Part shown: positions 29,840 through 34,886 of the stretch, one piece after another
Position numbering within the stretch: the stretch's first letter is position 1
Layout of the letters: each line of letters begins with the position of its first letter
Assembly (NCBI GenBank): GCA_016842085.1
Contig: JAEVEX010000035.1
Coordinates: 1 to 49,156, forward strand
Direction of reading: 5' to 3'
Length of the DNA stretch: 49,156 nucleotides
Source of the DNA: Candidatus Thermoflexus tengchongensis
GTDB lineage: Bacteria; Chloroflexota; Anaerolineae; Thermoflexales; Thermoflexaceae
The notes under the pieces: model-generated
What the model was told of the DNA's origin: nothing
Seen by the model: the letters and a program-made list of their open reading frames with translations, nothing else
Database searches by the model: none
Program-made: the position numbers and the translations under genes

Positions 29840-30032
29840 TCAGCCCCCATAGACGTCCGGCCTGGCGCGACGCATCAATGCCTCCGCCAGGCCCTCATCA
29901 AAGCGCCGGAACTCCTCCAGATCCAGCGGCTTACATAAAGGCGGAAGCAGTGCCTTCGGTCAGCACAAACCCCTGAAAGAAGGACGTGGCGAAAAGGGTT
30001 TTAAGCACCCTCTGCGGAAGGGGCGTCAGAAG
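29840..30032 (-). pseudogene. Remnant of an AbiEii-type nucleotidyltransferase (toxin) gene
   Basis: Read on minus, one frame gives LLTPLPQRVLKTLFATSFFQ then GFVLTEGTA, ending at TAA. This resembles the N-terminus of AbiEii/AbiGii-type nucleotidyltransferases, which start with a helix followed by a FYLTGGTALA-like segment. One base out of frame and directly after it lies KPLDLEEFRRFDEGLAEALM followed by RRARPDVYGG and TGA, which looks like the family's C-terminus. The middle, with the DLD catalytic site, is missing. This is consistent with a large internal deletion plus frameshift. The preceding small gene would be its partner. Identification rests on remembered family patterns, not a search. 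Confidence 0.5.
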
Positions 30033-30288
30033 CGATTTCGTATCCCCAGACACGGAGCCCCCACTCCCAGATCTCCCGGAGATCCGGCGGCCAGATGTAG
30101 CGGCGGACCACCGGCCAGTGCGCGGCGATCTCCTCCGGGGAGACATACCGCCAGATCTCCTCAAAAGGCGCCTCCGCCACGATCCGCCCGATCAACCGGG
30201 CGCGCTCCTCCGGATCCCCTTCGCGGAGGATCCGCCGGACTTCTTCCTCGGTTAAATCACCGCTCCACGCAAAGGGCGCCCGCGACAT
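30001..30288 (-). CDS. Small protein, likely partner of an AbiEii-type toxin
   Basis: A 95-residue acidic soluble protein rich in Trp, Glu and Arg (LTEEEVRRILREGDPEERAR, then LIGRIVAEAPFEEIWRYVSP). It resembles the small proteins often found directly upstream of AbiEii-type nucleotidyltransferases in thermophiles, where the pair would act as antitoxin and toxin; this link is inferred. GGGAAGGG lies 2-3 bases before the ATG. It sits 17 bases after the nuoF stop and its own stop overlaps the remnant of the putative toxin. It is embedded in the nuo operon and would be transcribed with it. It may be a leftover with no function now that its partner is deleted. Confidence 0.6.
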   Translation of the reverse strand: MSRAPFAWSGDLTEEEVRRILREGDPEERARLIGRIVAEAPFEEIWRYVSPEEIAAHWPVVRRYIWPPDLREIWEWGLRVWGYEIASDAPSAEGA

Positions 30289-30305: not shown

Positions 30306-31592
30306 TCAGGCCGGAACCTCCGCCGGTGTCTCCACCGCCCGGCGGAGATAGGCTTCATATTCCTTCCGGAAATGTTTCAGGCTGGAGAGCACCGGGCTGG
30401 TGGCGAAGTCCCCCAGCGGGCACAGGGTCTTGCCGGCCATCTGACGGGCGATGCTCTCCAGGAGCTCGGGGTCCTTCGGACGCCCGCGACCGGCGACGAT
30501 CCGCTCATAGACCCGCCGCAGCCAGTAGGTCCCCTCCCGGCACGGCGTGCACTTGCCGCAGGATTCATGCTGGAAGAACCGCACCATCTTGTAGGCCGCC
30601 CAGACGATGTCCACTGTGTCGTCCAGGACAATAATGGAAGCTGAACCCAGCATGGAGCCCGCGGCCTGAACGGATTCGTAATCCAGGGGCGTGTCCAGGG
30701 CGGAGGCCGGCAGCATGGGAGCGGAGGCCCCCGCCGGGAGGATCGCCTTCACCGTCCGCCCCTCTTCCAGCAGGCCCTGCCCGTATTCCTCGCCGAAGAT
30801 CAGATCCCGGAAGGTGATCTTCCCCAGCTCCGCCTCGTAGTTGCCCGGCCGGCGCACCCGGCCGCTCAGGCAGAAGATCTTGGGGCCCGGGCTCTTCTCC
30901 GTCCCCATGGTCCGATACCAGGCTGCCCCATGGAGGATGATGGGGGGGACGTTAGCCAGGGTCTCCACGTTGTTGACCACCGTCGGCTTGCCATAGAGGC
31001 CATAAGTGGCCGGGAACGGTGGGCGCACCCGGGGATGGCCGATTTTCCCTTCCAGGGACTCGAGGAGTGCCGTTTCCTCCCCACAGATGTAAGCCCCAGC
31101 CCCCAGGTGGACGAACATCTCGACCGAATAGCTCGTGCCCAGCACGTTGCGGCCGATGAACCCGGCGGCGTAGGCCTCGGCGATGGCGGCCTCCAGGCGA
31201 CGGGCCACCGAGCGGTATTCCCCGCGGACATAGATGTAAACGCGCTCGGCCTGGATCGCATACGCCGTCAGGAGCGCCCCCTCGATCAGCTGGTGGGGAT
31301 TCCCCTCCATGATCTCGCGGTCCTTGAAGGTCCCCGGCTCGGACTCATCCGCGTTGACCACCACATATTTCGGGAACACATCTTTGGGCACGAAGGACCA
31401 TTTCATCCCGGTGGGGAAGCCCGCCCCGCCCCGCCCCCGAAGGCCGGAGGCCTTCACCTCCTCGATCACCTGATCCGGGGTCATGGCGGTGAGGGCCTTT
31501 CGCCACGCCTCATAGCCGCCGTGGCGGACGTAGACCTCCAGACGATGAAGATCGGGGATCTCCCGATGTCGCAACAGGATATAGCGTCCCAT
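30306..31592 (-). CDS. nuoF: NADH-quinone oxidoreductase subunit F
   Basis: A 428-residue NADH-binding subunit holding FMN and 4Fe-4S cluster N3, the entry point for electrons. The FMN/NADH site is in GLRGRGGAGFPTGMKW (about 50-64) and GAGAYICGEETALLESLEG (164-182). The cluster ligands are Cys345, 348, 351 in ESCGKCTPCREGT and Cys391. ATG 31592 overlaps the nuoE TGA by one base (TGATG), and the family's N-terminus begins here; the longer open frame to 31709 overlaps nuoE. Presence of nuoEFG shows that this is a full NADH-oxidising complex. Confidence 0.97.
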   Translation of the reverse strand: MGRYILLRHREIPDLHRLEVYVRHGGYEAWRKALTAMTPDQVIEEVKASGLRGRGGAGFPTGMKWSFVPKDVFPKYVVVNADESEPGTFKDREIMEGNPHQLIEGALLTAYAIQAERVYIYVRGEYRSVARRLEAAIAEAYAAGFIGRNVLGTSYSVEMFVHLGAGAYICGEETALLESLEGKIGHPRVRPPFPATYGLYGKPTVVNNVETLANVPPIILHGAAWYRTMGTEKSPGPKIFCLSGRVRRPGNYEAELGKITFRDLIFGEEYGQGLLEEGRTVKAILPAGASAPMLPASALDTPLDYESVQAAGSMLGSASIIVLDDTVDIVWAAYKMVRFFQHESCGKCTPCREGTYWLRRVYERIVAGRGRPKDPELLESIARQMAGKTLCPLGDFATSPVLSSLKHFRKEYEAYLRRAVETPAEVPA

Positions 31593-32068
31593 CACGCTCC
31601 ATCCCGTGAAAGCTCTTCGACGACCCGATCGAAAACCTCCGGTGTCACATTCTCCACGAACTCCAGGTCCACCTGCATCGCCGGCGCCCGATGGCACGCT
31701 CCGATACACATCACCGTCTCCAGCGTGAACCGGCCGTCCGGCGTGGTCTCCCCCGGCCGGATCCCCAGGCGCCGCGTGGCATGCGCCACCAGGTCATCCG
31801 CCCCTCGCAGGGCACAGGGGAGATCATCGCAGATCTGGATCCGGTGGCGGCCGATGGGATGATCGTAGAAAAGGGTGTAGAAGCCCACCACCTCCCGGAC
31901 CTCCGTGGGGCTGACGCCCGTGATCTCAGCGACCTCCCGGATGCCCTCCTCGGTGCAGTAGCCGTATTCCCGCTGCACCAGGTAGAGCAGGGGCAGCACC
32001 GCCGAACGCTTCACCGGATACCTCGCCAGGATCGCCTCGATTTCCTGCTTATATTTCTCCCGAAGCAT
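31592..32068 (-). CDS. nuoE: NADH-quinone oxidoreductase subunit E
   Basis: A 158-residue thioredoxin-fold ferredoxin that carries 2Fe-2S cluster N1a. The N-terminal helical part contains LLYLVQREYGYCTEEGIREV and VREVVGFYTLFY. The four cluster ligands are Cys80 and Cys85 (QICDDLPC) and Cys121 and Cys125 (MCIGAC). GAGGGTGAAGA precedes the ATG at 32068. It follows the V4R-like gene by 42 bases and is translationally coupled to nuoF. Confidence 0.96.
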   Translation of the reverse strand: MLREKYKQEIEAILARYPVKRSAVLPLLYLVQREYGYCTEEGIREVAEITGVSPTEVREVVGFYTLFYDHPIGRHRIQICDDLPCALRGADDLVAHATRRLGIRPGETTPDGRFTLETVMCIGACHRAPAMQVDLEFVENVTPEVFDRVVEELSRDGA

Positions 32069-32110: not shown

Positions 32111-32725
32111 CTATTGCCACTCAATCCGATAACGGCAGGCACCCGCCCCACCTCCCCGGCAGGATTCCTCGATCACCTGGACGGCTTCCACCGGGCGCTC
32201 CAGCACCCAGGCCACCAGCGCCTCCAGGACCCCGGCGGGGAGATCGCAACACGGCTCCGCGCATGAGATCTCGACGCAATACGGGCAGCTGGGATTTTCC
32301 CAGTAAAAACGAGCGCCCTCACGCCAGACACGAGGCGCGGAGCCTGTCTCCAGGCGCACGACGTTCGCCGCCCGCTGCAGCGCGTTATAGACCCGTTCCC
32401 CGGGAGCGTGCAGGAAACCGGTCACCAGACGGATCAAATGGGCCACCCAGCCATAGGCCTCCAGATCCCGACGGAACACCTGGTGACCGATCTGGCGGAG
32501 GGTCTGACCCCCTTCAGGCCCTCGCTGCTCCCGGATCCGCTGGCAGAAAGCGGAGATCTCCGCAAAGGTCACGCCCGGCTCCGGATTGGCTGGGGGGAGC
32601 TTCTCCCGATAGCGTTCCAACCCAGCCCCTTCCAGAGCCTGGCTCCAGGCCTCCGGGCCGATCACCTGGCGAGCCGCATCCAGGATCTGACGGGCATATC
32701 GGTTCGTGAGCTGACCGGGGGTCAT
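32111..32725 (-). CDS. V4R-like small-ligand-binding domain protein, Cys-rich
   Basis: A 204-residue soluble protein in the nuo operon. The C-terminal half resembles the V4R (4-vinyl reductase) / heme-NO-binding-related fold: helices, then a Cys-rich segment ending in EESCRGGGAGACRYRIEW, like the C-terminal CxxxGxxxCRF pattern of V4R domains. Cysteines at 147, 150, 155, 159, 160, 189 and 197 could bind a metal or cluster. ATG 32725 has GGGGAGG nine bases upstream. The upstream open frame to 32761 lacks such a site. It may sense a small molecule or redox state, or assist complex assembly; this is inference from context. Family call is moderate. Confidence 0.6.
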   Translation of the reverse strand: MTPGQLTNRYARQILDAARQVIGPEAWSQALEGAGLERYREKLPPANPEPGVTFAEISAFCQRIREQRGPEGGQTLRQIGHQVFRRDLEAYGWVAHLIRLVTGFLHAPGERVYNALQRAANVVRLETGSAPRVWREGARFYWENPSCPYCVEISCAEPCCDLPAGVLEALVAWVLERPVEAVQVIEESCRGGGAGACRYRIEWQ

Positions 32726-32791
32726 CGTCCGTTTCCTCCCCGCATAGCTCGCCCCGGGCATGGGGCCGCATGCCGCCTCTCGGCTCCGGGC

Positions 32792-33622
32792 TCATCCACC
32801 ATGCCCGCTCCCCAGGGCCTCGGCCAGGAAAGACTCCAGGAGCGGCGTCACCACGTCGGGGCGCTCCAGGTTGGCGATGTGACCGGCTTCCGGGATGATC
32901 TCCAGACGTGCCCCTGGAATCGCCTCCGCCATCCGTTTCGCTTCATGAGGAGGTCGCGAAACATCATCCGCACCCACCAGGATCAGTGTCGGCACCCGGA
33001 TCTCCCCCAGCCGCTCCAGCACCGAAGAACGGGTAAAGATACCCCGTCCGATGGCCAGGATCCCCGGAAGGCGCTCCGGGGGGATGGCCGCCAGGCTGGC
33101 CTTGAACCGGGCGATCAAATCCGGATCCCGCTGCACGGTGACCGGTGAGAAAAAGAACGGCACAAGCGCCTCCAGGATGGGCGGAGGGAGCGCCCCGGCC
33201 TGCTCCACCGCGGCCATCATGGCGAAATATCGCTGCCGGGATTCCTCCGGCTCCGCGCCCGCATCCGTATCCATCAGCACCAGGGCGGCAACGGCCTCCG
33301 GATGGTTCAGGGCCAGGCGCATCCCCCACATCCCGCCCACGGAGAGGCCGACCACCGCGAACCGGGAGAGCCCCAGGGCCTGGGCGAAGGCCCACAGATC
33401 CTCCGCCAGCTCATCCACCGAATAGGGAGAATGCGGTGGAGGATCCGATCGGCCGTGGGCCCAGATCTCGGGGACAATGCACCGGTAGGCCCGGGAAAGG
33501 ACGGCCACCTGAGGTTCCCACATCCGGGCGTCCCACAGGTAGCTGTGTCCGAACAACACCGGGAAGCCTCTCCCGTGATCCTCATAGAACATCCGGCGCT
33601 CGCGGATCTTCACCTCCGGCAT
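32792..33622 (-). CDS. Alpha/beta-hydrolase fold protein
   Basis: A 276-residue hydrolase of the 3-oxoadipate-enol-lactonase/esterase-like branch. The nucleophile elbow GLSVGG puts Ser at 94; the acid is in GADDVSRPP (Asp219 or 220) and the base is His248 in EAGH. The oxyanion region is FGHSYLWDARMW, with Gly-His. GGAGGGGAGG is just before the ATG at 33622. It lies between nuoD and the V4R-like gene, 22 bases downstream of nuoD, so it is co-transcribed with complex I. The substrate is not predictable. Confidence 0.83.
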   Translation of the reverse strand: MPEVKIRERRMFYEDHGRGFPVLFGHSYLWDARMWEPQVAVLSRAYRCIVPEIWAHGRSDPPPHSPYSVDELAEDLWAFAQALGLSRFAVVGLSVGGMWGMRLALNHPEAVAALVLMDTDAGAEPEESRQRYFAMMAAVEQAGALPPPILEALVPFFFSPVTVQRDPDLIARFKASLAAIPPERLPGILAIGRGIFTRSSVLERLGEIRVPTLILVGADDVSRPPHEAKRMAEAIPGARLEIIPEAGHIANLERPDVVTPLLESFLAEALGSGHGG

Positions 33623-33644
33623 GGCCTCCCCTCCTGATCCAGGA

Positions 33645-34886
33645 TCAGCGATCCACCTCTCCCAGCACGATGTCGATGCTGCCGATGATGGCCACCAGAT
33701 CCGCCACCAGGCAACCCTTCGCCATAATCGGAAGGGCCTGCAGGTTCACAAAGGAGGGGGCCCGGAAATGGACCCGGCGGGGCTTCGGGGAGCCATCGCT
33801 GTTGATGTAGACCCCGAACTCCCCCCGCGGGGATTCGACCGCGTGGTAGACCTCGCCCGGAGGCGGGCTGAACCCTTCCGTCCAGAACTTGAAATGATGG
33901 ATCAGCGCCTCCATGCTCCAGGCCAGCTCCTCCTTCGGCGGCGGTGTCACCTTACGGTCCGGAGTGATGTAGGGGCCCTTCGGAAGGCGCCGGAGGGCCT
34001 GGTCGATGATGCGCAGGCTCTGGCGCATCTCCTCGATGCGCACCATGAAACGGTCGTAAACGTCGCCGTTCTCCCCCAGCGGGACGTCGAACTCGAAATG
34101 GTCATACGAGGAATAGGGTTGGGCCTTGCGCACATCGTAGTTCACCCCTGAACCCCGCAGGGAGGGCCCAGTGACCCCCCAGGCGATGGCGTCCTCCGGC
34201 GAGATCACCCCTACCCCCTTCGTCCGCTGGAGCCAGAGCGGGTTCCGCTTCAGCAAGCGCTCGTATTCATTGATCCGGGATGGCATGAGCTTCAGGAAGG
34301 CACGGACCGCGTCCTCGAATCCCTCCGGGACATCCCGCCACAGCCCGCCGACGCGGAAATAGGAGACCATCATCCGCTGGCCGGAGACCATCTCGAAGAT
34401 GTCCAGGATCATCTCCCGCTCGCGGAAGCAATACAAAAAGACGCTCATCGCCGCGATGTCCAGGGCGTGGGTCCCCAGCCAGACCAGGTGGCTGGCGATG
34501 CGCTGGAGCTCCGTGAGGATGACCCGGATATACTGGGCCCGCAGGGGGACCTCCACCCCCATCAGTTTCTCCACGGCCATCACATAGGCCAGGTTGTTGG
34601 ACATGGGGGAGAGGTAATCGATACGATCCGTCAGGGGAATGATCTTGGTATAGGTCTTCGACTCGCAGTGCTTCTCGATGCCGGTGTGCAGGTATCCGAT
34701 ATCCGGCACGACCGAGACGATGGTCTCGCCGTCCAGTTCCACCAGCAGGCGCAGCACGCCATGGGTGCTCGGATGCTGCGGGCCCATATTCAGGAGGATG
34801 GTCTCGCCCCGGAGCGCCCGCTCGGAGACCAGATGTTTCAGCTGTTCGAGTGTGAATTCCTGAACCTCACCCTCCCGGATCGCCAT
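33645..34886 (-). CDS. nuoD: NADH-quinone oxidoreductase subunit D
   Basis: A 413-residue subunit that forms the quinone site with NuoB. It is related to the large subunit of NiFe hydrogenases, but the metal ligands are lost as expected. Signatures include NMGPQHPSTHGVLRLLVELD, the GYLHTGIEKHCESKTY segment, TDRIDYLSPMSNNLAYV and ESPRGEFGVYINSDGS. The C-terminus ends in SIDIVLGEVDR, matching the universal end of NuoD. No nuoCD fusion exists; nuoC is separate and upstream. The site before ATG 34886 is weak. Confidence 0.97.
   Translation of the reverse strand: MAIREGEVQEFTLEQLKHLVSERALRGETILLNMGPQHPSTHGVLRLLVELDGETIVSVVPDIGYLHTGIEKHCESKTYTKIIPLTDRIDYLSPMSNNLAYVMAVEKLMGVEVPLRAQYIRVILTELQRIASHLVWLGTHALDIAAMSVFLYCFREREMILDIFEMVSGQRMMVSYFRVGGLWRDVPEGFEDAVRAFLKLMPSRINEYERLLKRNPLWLQRTKGVGVISPEDAIAWGVTGPSLRGSGVNYDVRKAQPYSSYDHFEFDVPLGENGDVYDRFMVRIEEMRQSLRIIDQALRRLPKGPYITPDRKVTPPPKEELAWSMEALIHHFKFWTEGFSPPPGEVYHAVESPRGEFGVYINSDGSPKPRRVHFRAPSFVNLQALPIMAKGCLVADLVAIIGSIDIVLGEVDR

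Follow-up and report, generated by a model that had tools for sequence, protein, structure and literature searches.

An alpha/beta hydrolase and a V4R-type protein encoded between nuoD and nuoE in Thermoflexus: a possible accessory cassette of the nuo operon

Introduction

The V4R domain is related to Bet3, a kinship described in passages of PMC2253512, where the functions of V4R proteins are also called not thoroughly understood. A wider kinship that joins H-NOX, TRAPPC3 and V4R is already known from passages of PMC10933270, which report that Thor TRAPPC3 binds Zn through four cysteines and possesses internal cavities, with a similar arrangement in PoxR. Two described systems connect cysteines of such proteins with redox sensing. 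In MsvR of methanogens, the V4R-domain cysteines C206, C232 and C240 have been tested in redox-sensitive DNA binding (passages of PMC3729527), while in a heme-free H-NOX protein redox is sensed through a Zn-Cys site (passages of PMC7108781).

The open-access literature searched holds no paper that joins the V4R domain with Chloroflexi or with a nuo operon, and none of the titles returned for V4R, NADH dehydrogenase and operon together indicates a V4R gene within nuo. The genome paper for T. hugenholtzii mentions NADH:quinone oxidoreductase (passages of PMC8129789). Prokaryotic Ras-like GTPases, including those of Chloroflexi, are treated in passages of PMC4316618, and V4R goes unmentioned in the main text of that paper. 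The nuo operon described here carries a V4R-type gene together with a gene for an alpha/beta hydrolase (ABH).

Organization of the nuo operon

The window, a stretch of 49,156 nucleotides from Candidatus Thermoflexus tengchongensis, contains on its minus strand a full nuo set, with 14 of 14 subunits recognized by Pfam in the order A B C D - E F - G H I J K L M N and an SRP54 gene (Pfam) downstream. Inserted between nuoD (33645..34886, minus strand; Complex1_49kDa, E 1.9e-122) and nuoE (31592..32068, minus strand; 2Fe-2S_thioredx, E 1.1e-51) are the ABH gene (32792..33622, minus strand) and then the V4R-type gene (32111..32725, minus strand). An earlier note on this DNA had the coordinates, strand and order of the pair right. 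Its statement that the nuo genes are contiguous except for this pair needs amending, as all 14 are present in order but a third non-core ORF of 95 aa between nuoF and nuoG (30001..30288, minus strand) had been overlooked, and ABH and V4R are thus not the sole interruption of the set.

The genes from nuoD to nuoE are co-oriented and separated by gaps of 22, 66 and 42 bp, none of which contains a terminator-like sequence. Seven terminator-like matches occur in the stretch where 1.5 are expected; they lie on the minus strand, all within the nuoD, hydrolase and V4R genes, and are taken as chance matches in coding sequence. Judging from the spacing, nuoD, ABH, V4R and nuoE are likely co-transcribed, and the earlier suggestion that the pair is transcribed with complex I is supported to that extent. 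The good ribosome sites claimed for both genes are present. The hydrolase gene is preceded by a strong Shine-Dalgarno-like sequence, AGGAGGGGAGG (33625..33635, minus strand), and the V4R gene by GGGAGGAA (32733..32740, minus strand). An in-frame ATG at 32761 would extend the V4R protein to 216 aa, but the strong Shine-Dalgarno sequence GGGAGGAA and the start indicated by homology fit ATG 32725, which gives a protein of 204 aa.

The 95-aa ORF scores above the cut-off for no Pfam or NCBIfam family. It is 84-100% identical in eight of the nine Thermoflexus genomes, among them G078, which lacks the ABH and V4R pair. Its dN/dS is 0.07-0.11 against three relatives and 0.94 against the closest one, where dS is just 0.015. 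A search of 337 class genomes gave remoter matches in 31 more, and relatives occupy the same place between nuoF and nuoG in G129 and G339. Outside Thermoflexus, four genomes list both this ORF and nuoD; the two are on different contigs in three (G085, G004, G282) and share a contig in G129.

Identity and predicted fold of the V4R protein

By its sequence, the V4R protein belongs to a family common in the class Anaerolineae, within which it is divergent; 208 of the 396 class genomes have a homologue. The match to Pfam V4R (PF02830) is weak and confined to the C-terminus (E 8.6e-4, 19.8 bits against a curated value of 31; 22.2 bits in the genome scan), while three class homologues pass the 31-bit cut-off with 34.5-42.3 bits. 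The protein falls well below the cut-offs for the BchJ 4-vinyl reductase (TIGR02019; 17 bits, cut-off 74.3) and for MsvR (NF053755; 15.2 bits, cut-off 220, with the C-terminus alone matched), and both assignments were rejected. A phmmer search of solved structures gave one row at chance level (E 0.18). Of the three V4R-domain places in the genome, the third (C55:17859-18038, locus L001) matches Pfam best (E 8.3e-15). Values of dN/dS against four congeners are 0.133-0.251 for V4R and 0.052-0.085 for ABH, and 0.011-0.170 for the Nuo subunits compared with congeners; the low values for ABH and V4R indicate that both genes are under selection.

An AlphaFold2 model built from four sequences (pLDDT 74.5, pTM 0.76; pLDDT below 50 for residues 148-158, which hold C150 and C155) predicts a Bet3/V4R fold. 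The best structural matches (Foldseek, VIA-align) are H-NOX proteins, with Z of 14-15.4 over 168-174 residues at 2.8-3.4 A; they span nearly the whole model, with Z up to 15.4 over 173 residues. VIA-align gives Z of 13.4 for Thorarchaeota TRAPPC3 and 11.9 for mouse Bet3, at 12-16% identity. PoxR is not among the best 50 VIA-align rows, which excludes nothing. The fold match to TRAPPC3/Bet3 and H-NOX, together with the family-wide pattern of Cys and Gly residues, upholds the V4R-type identity first proposed from the sequence, and small-molecule binding is, by homology, the best guess for what the protein does.

Membership of the H-NOX family itself was considered and rejected. H-NOX PF07700 matches nothing in the genome, whereas a Caulobacter control was positive. 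YxSxR, an H-NOX motif, is missing from the protein and present in 1 of 74 V4R rows. On a proximal heme His the alignments point both ways: H81 is constant in the seven Thermoflexus V4R proteins, but outside Thermoflexus none of the window protein's three His positions has His as one of its common residues, and 18 aligned nuo-linked rows share no invariant His.

Cysteines of the V4R protein

The seven cysteines that the earlier note counted in the last 60 residues were confirmed by position (147, 150, 155, 159, 160, 189 and 197), within a Cys-rich C-terminal part of residues 147-204 (32114..32287, minus strand). In an alignment of 74 copies, C147 is Cys in 70, C150 in 56, C160 in 74, C189 in 73 and C197 in 66, so that five of the seven are family-typical as judged from that alignment. 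One copy, at locus L010, has Ser in place of Cys at C189. G69, G80 and G165 are kept in 74 of 74 class copies. The remaining two cysteines, C155 and C159, are constant across the seven Thermoflexus proteins. At C159, Cys occurs in 16 of 55 copies not linked to nuo and in none of 12 copies from a second family, f39 (described below); at C155 it is outside the four commonest residues in both groups.

The five family-typical cysteines likely form a putative Zn site that would be redox-responsive. Based on MsvR, a tentative pairing would align C160, C189 and C197 (spacing 29 and 8) with C206, C232 and C240 of MaMsvR (26 and 8; passages of PMC3729527), and the protein has weak HMM similarity to the V4R and MsvR models. 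It differs from MsvR and PF02830 proteins in scoring below the curated values, in having no DNA-binding domain that was found and in being encoded inside nuo. A Cys-rich redox-sensor site would also be analogous to that of the heme-free Vibrio cholerae H-NOX, as H-NOX is the closest fold to the model; the lack of a PF07700 match in the genome and of YxSxR in the protein sets it apart. The predicted fold likewise resembles TRAPPC3/Bet3, but no GTPase gene adjoins the nuo V4R gene, while class relatives elsewhere have one. PoxR, a phenol sensor of the DmpR type, offers a further likeness, since it has a V4R domain, binds a phenol and possesses a Zn site (passages of PMC10933270). No recognized output domain was found in the nuo-encoded V4R protein with Pfam or NCBIfam. 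The sensor domain of PoxR, unlike this protein, is fused to a transcription activator.

The alpha/beta hydrolase

ABH is an esterase-like protein of 276 aa (Abhydrolase_1, E 3.9e-29) that scores 102.5 bits against PF00561, for which the cut-off is 25.8. S94, D220 and H248 do not vary among the 13 members aligned and, by position, would constitute the catalytic triad. The closest solved sequences are the esterases 4uhh and 4uhc (E 2e-44), of the series 4uhc-4uhh that we take to be TtEst of Thermogutta terrifontis. PcaD enol-lactonase (TIGR02427) is the closest single-function curated family, but ABH differs in scoring below its cut-off (154.9 bits against 255.85), and assignment to MenH (TIGR03695) fails at 71.8 bits against 208.55. 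A closer MenH-like gene is present elsewhere in the genome (C60, 104.9 bits, also below 208.55).

Orthologues of ABH at 61-100% identity occur in 13 of 396 class genomes, the next best match being at 41%. In five of these genomes, all outside Thermoflexus and other than G004 (G045, G374, G121, G199 and G330), no nuo or V4R gene was found in the stretch read; two of the five contigs are shorter than 10 kb, and in G330 the gene is near the contig end. The link of ABH to V4R is not obligatory. Relatives 42-61% identical are found in Nitrospirota, Desulfobacterota, Cyanobacteria and many Gammaproteobacteria (the best 80 of at least 580), and they have no shared neighborhood, since the commonest neighbor cluster reaches 19 of 78 loci, of which 18 are from Vibrio or Vibrionaceae. 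The relatives found by the LFGHSYLW and GLSVGGMW patterns (L145-L213) are frequent in Vibrionaceae, Burkholderia and others, with no fixed neighbor. From these comparisons ABH looks like a general, widespread esterase-like enzyme.

Distribution in Thermoflexus and in a second family

A V4R orthologue is present in seven of the nine Thermoflexus genomes searched, the genome of the window included, and the other six proteins are 64-92% identical to the window's. All seven have the order nuoD-ABH-V4R-nuoE, with 1530-1579 bp between nuoD and nuoE. The pair occurs in seven of the eight Thermoflexus operons in which the D-E junction was read; as it has no close nuoD, G141 (76% complete) does not enter this count. 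In the exception, G078, one contig carries the genes from nuoA to the start of nuoM, with nuoD and nuoE 56 bp apart and ABH and V4R both missing; as far as it is assembled, the operon is otherwise retained. When nine Nuo proteins are concatenated, the resulting tree places G078 within the genus (98/99 with G122 and G159), so that the pair was most simply lost there. Since the G078 operon lacks the pair, neither gene is obligate, and ABH and V4R are maintained but dispensable genes.

Among 18 other class operons that show both nuoD and nuoE (L113, which lacks nuoE, is excluded), 17 have them 4-126 bp apart with nothing between. The remaining genome, G004 ('Thermoflexales bacterium S140_20'), has ABH alone at this junction, at 69% identity and with no V4R.

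V4R genes are found in a nuo cluster of family f39 as well. Seven of 13 f39 genomes have a nuo-type V4R at 270 bits or more, the next best being at most 160 bits, a gap that is partly by construction since f39 copies helped build the nuo-V4R model. Six of these genomes carry one to three tandem V4R copies in the interval from nuoK to nuoL, and the seventh has V4R after nuoK where the contig ends, for 12 f39 copies overall. The f39 nuo cluster is split; A, E, H, J, K, L, M and N were found in the stretches read, but no B, C, D, F, G or I was seen there. Six f39 genomes have no nuo-type V4R, and in the one of them whose K-L junction was read (G300) nuoK and nuoL are 6 bp apart. The D-E and K-L placements indicate that genes of this kind have entered nuo clusters at two different points, and in each of the two lineages some relatives have such a gene while others lack it.

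Other features of the f39 clusters include a DinB-like gene between nuoH and nuoJ (L040, L044, L075, L079) and, in some, small ORFs shared between V4R and nuoL, one of which is weakly Caa3_CtaG-like but below the cut-off. A short V4R-like remnant beside two full-length copies (L040:8825-8902) suggests duplication and decay of V4R at the nuoK-nuoL place.

Matches listed for 400 genomes of the phylum, none of those listed being from f39, include no nuo-V4R profile score above 168.5 bits except for three Thermoflexus nuo copies (268-274). A candidate third nuo case in another class (G666), taken from the matches listed, was rejected, as some 13 kb separate its V4R gene from nuoD and the interval from V4R to nuoE yielded no nuo gene. 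Among the matches listed for family f27, four genomes (G326, G344, G179, G212) have V4R on the same contig as nuoD but 33-42 kb away, which is not operonic.

V4R tree and gene neighborhoods

In an unrooted tree of 74 V4R copies from the loci read, 19 nuo-linked copies group together at 93/45. When four long rows (L066_8794, L065_10428, L071_5001 and L038_2272) are dropped, the 19 are split from 51 others at 95/91. A duplicate row (L074_10643) is excluded from both trees, and L080_9723 was reassigned from 'nuo' to 'other' as it merely lies about 5 kb from a nuoE-F-G-like stretch. The Thermoflexus stem is long, at 2.2 changes per column, and with the 93/45 support this means that the grouping is possibly due to long-branch attraction. 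A single nuo-associated V4R group is likely on the basis of the two trees.

Neighborhoods were read for best-scoring matches as opposed to a random sample. The 68 V4R copies at 60 loci comprise 24 that adjoin a hydrolase gene (nuo ones excluded), eight that adjoin a GTPase gene, five with Roadblock, 14 in nuo (a count that includes one duplicate Thermoflexus locus and one copy later moved to 'other') and 17 others. Clusters near V4R at these 60 loci include a response regulator (38), a GAF histidine kinase (28), a hydrolase (27, one of them nuo), a Ras-like GTPase (22), DUF4388 (20), a hexapeptide protein (18) and an acyl-ACP-reductase-like protein (14). A recurring order, seen in at least 10 loci (L036, L038, L081, L083-L085, L089, L091-L093), is DUF4388, Ras-like GTPase, alpha/beta hydrolase, V4R, hexapeptide protein, acyl-ACP-reductase-like protein, response regulator/GGDEF and GAF histidine kinase. 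For two of the reductase-like neighbors the top NCBIfam model is PigE, matched in its N-terminal part (238 and 229.5 bits, cut-off 850), followed by the acyl-ACP reductase TIGR04058 (121.8 and 103.9 bits, cut-off 449.7). Against solved structures, one of them matches 4ppm at E 2e-40 and the acyl-ACP reductase 6jzq at E 4.6e-27.

The hydrolases that adjoin V4R elsewhere are 22-30% identical to the nuo ABH, while other hydrolases of the class are 34-41% identical. As the V4R-adjoining hydrolases are the remoter ones, the pairing of a hydrolase with V4R seemingly arose more than once.

A Roadblock/LC7 gene lies directly before V4R at five loci (L068, L053, L055, L069 and L072), with a response regulator after V4R in four of the five. 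One of them is in the genome of the window, where a Roadblock gene directly precedes the second V4R gene (C20, L068:9142-10227). At these five loci, Roadblock and TRAPP-like folds are neighbors in bacteria.

Possible roles of the pair

The account favored here, tentatively and at somewhat less than an even chance, is that the V4R protein is a ligand- or redox-responsive accessory protein co-expressed with complex I and that ABH is a guest esterase. The two genes would form a lineage-specific accessory cassette carried in the Thermoflexus nuo operon. The V4R protein, with its predicted H-NOX/TRAPPC3/V4R ligand-binding fold, is probably a soluble dimer; its five-cysteine site would likely hold Zn and respond to redox, and the protein probably belongs to the V4R group tied to nuo genes of two lineages. 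It would most likely act in trans, as a small-molecule or redox regulator whose amount tracks complex I, and not as a subunit. ABH would be a separate, widespread enzyme of esterase type that came to share this junction; it may act on a hydrophobic ester, possibly the ligand of V4R. This account is favored by the retention of the pair in seven of eight operons, its co-orientation with short gaps free of terminator-like sites, purifying selection, the recurrence of V4R in the nuo genes of f39, the 95/91 split of nuo-linked from other copies, the fold, the family cysteines, the precedents in MsvR, TRAPPC3, PoxR and heme-free H-NOX, and the hydrolase gene that adjoins 24 of the 68 V4R copies. Against it stand the loss in G078, G300 without V4R, ABH elsewhere without nuo or V4R, ABH without V4R in G004, the differing nuo positions, the split f39 cluster, the 93/45 support with the long Thermoflexus branch, the missing output domain, a model built from four sequences with low pLDDT around C150 and C155, and the Ser in L010. 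The main rival, quite possible and nearly as likely since it explains nearly as much, is that unrelated genes settle in a strongly expressed nuo operon and that ABH and V4R are unconnected to complex I. The joint absence of the two from G078, the mostly stand-alone ABH family with its Vibrio-dominated commonest neighborhood, the DinB-like gene beside nuoJ and the small ORFs near V4R in f39, and the relatives of the 95-aa ORF on contigs other than that of nuoD in three of four non-Thermoflexus genomes are all consistent with such hitch-hiking. The presence of V4R among the nuo genes of two families, separated in the tree from non-nuo copies, argues against it, as do the retention of the pair in Thermoflexus and the low dN/dS. 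The earlier note held that absence of the pair from the nuo operons of relatives would mark a chance insertion; the absence is real for G078 and 17 of 18 others, but the conclusion is offset by that retention and by the recurrence of V4R in the nuo genes of a second family.

An assembly factor or accessory subunit of complex I is improbable. Placement between nuoD and nuoE or between nuoK and nuoL and likely co-transcription would suit such a role, but both genes are missing from the G078 operon, none of the 18 other class operons has V4R at the D-E junction and 17 of them have no hydrolase there, and G300 has no V4R. A core or conserved part of complex I was rejected on the absences from G078 and from most other class operons, and the general role in assembly that had been suggested is not upheld, since 17 of those 18 operons lack both genes and one has the hydrolase only. 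Still less probable is an enzyme pair acting on quinone, with ABH being MenH-like and V4R a quinone carrier. Complex I reduces a quinone and ABH has weak similarity to MenH, but the score is far below the MenH cut-off and below that of C60, and ABH is nearer PcaD and has solved relatives named esterase. For the V4R protein itself, the quinone-like ligand proposed earlier is one candidate; the hints seen, which are the acyl-reductase-like neighbors of V4R elsewhere and the palmitate of TRAPPC3, favor acyl chains no less than a quinone. Least probable, and barely to be entertained, is a heme-based H-NOX gas sensor placed with the respiratory chain. The near full-length H-NOX matches and the constant H81 would fit it, but PF07700 finds nothing in the genome, YxSxR is missing and, elsewhere in the V4R family, His is not a common residue where the window protein has its three. 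All members of the H-NOX set in passages of PMC7108781 keep the proximal His.

The favored account of an accessory V4R protein can be extended. A nuo-dedicated V4R branch could move among the complex I genes of Chloroflexota, at the D-E junction in Thermoflexus and in tandem at K-L in the other family, respond to redox or to an acyl or quinone ligand and couple the expression or activity of the respiratory chain to the state of the membrane lipids or of redox, with its cousins beside Ras-like GTPase and Roadblock genes forming a bacterial counterpart of TRAPP-Rab; this extension is unlikely.

Significance

ABH and the V4R protein are both of known kinds. As far as open-access searches go, what is new is a V4R group tied to nuo in two lineages and the association, seen across the class, between V4R and genes for GTPases and acyl-reductase-like proteins. 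If the genes are merely hitch-hiking, they serve as a warning against inferring function from an insertion into nuo. Stand-alone V4R proteins mostly have no known ligand or partner, and a nuo-tied group in two lineages, where close relatives naturally differ in having or lacking the gene, provides a testable case. The class-wide occurrence of V4R alongside genes for Ras-like GTPases, Roadblock proteins and acyl-reductase-like proteins bears on the prokaryotic origin of TRAPP that is proposed in passages of PMC2253512.
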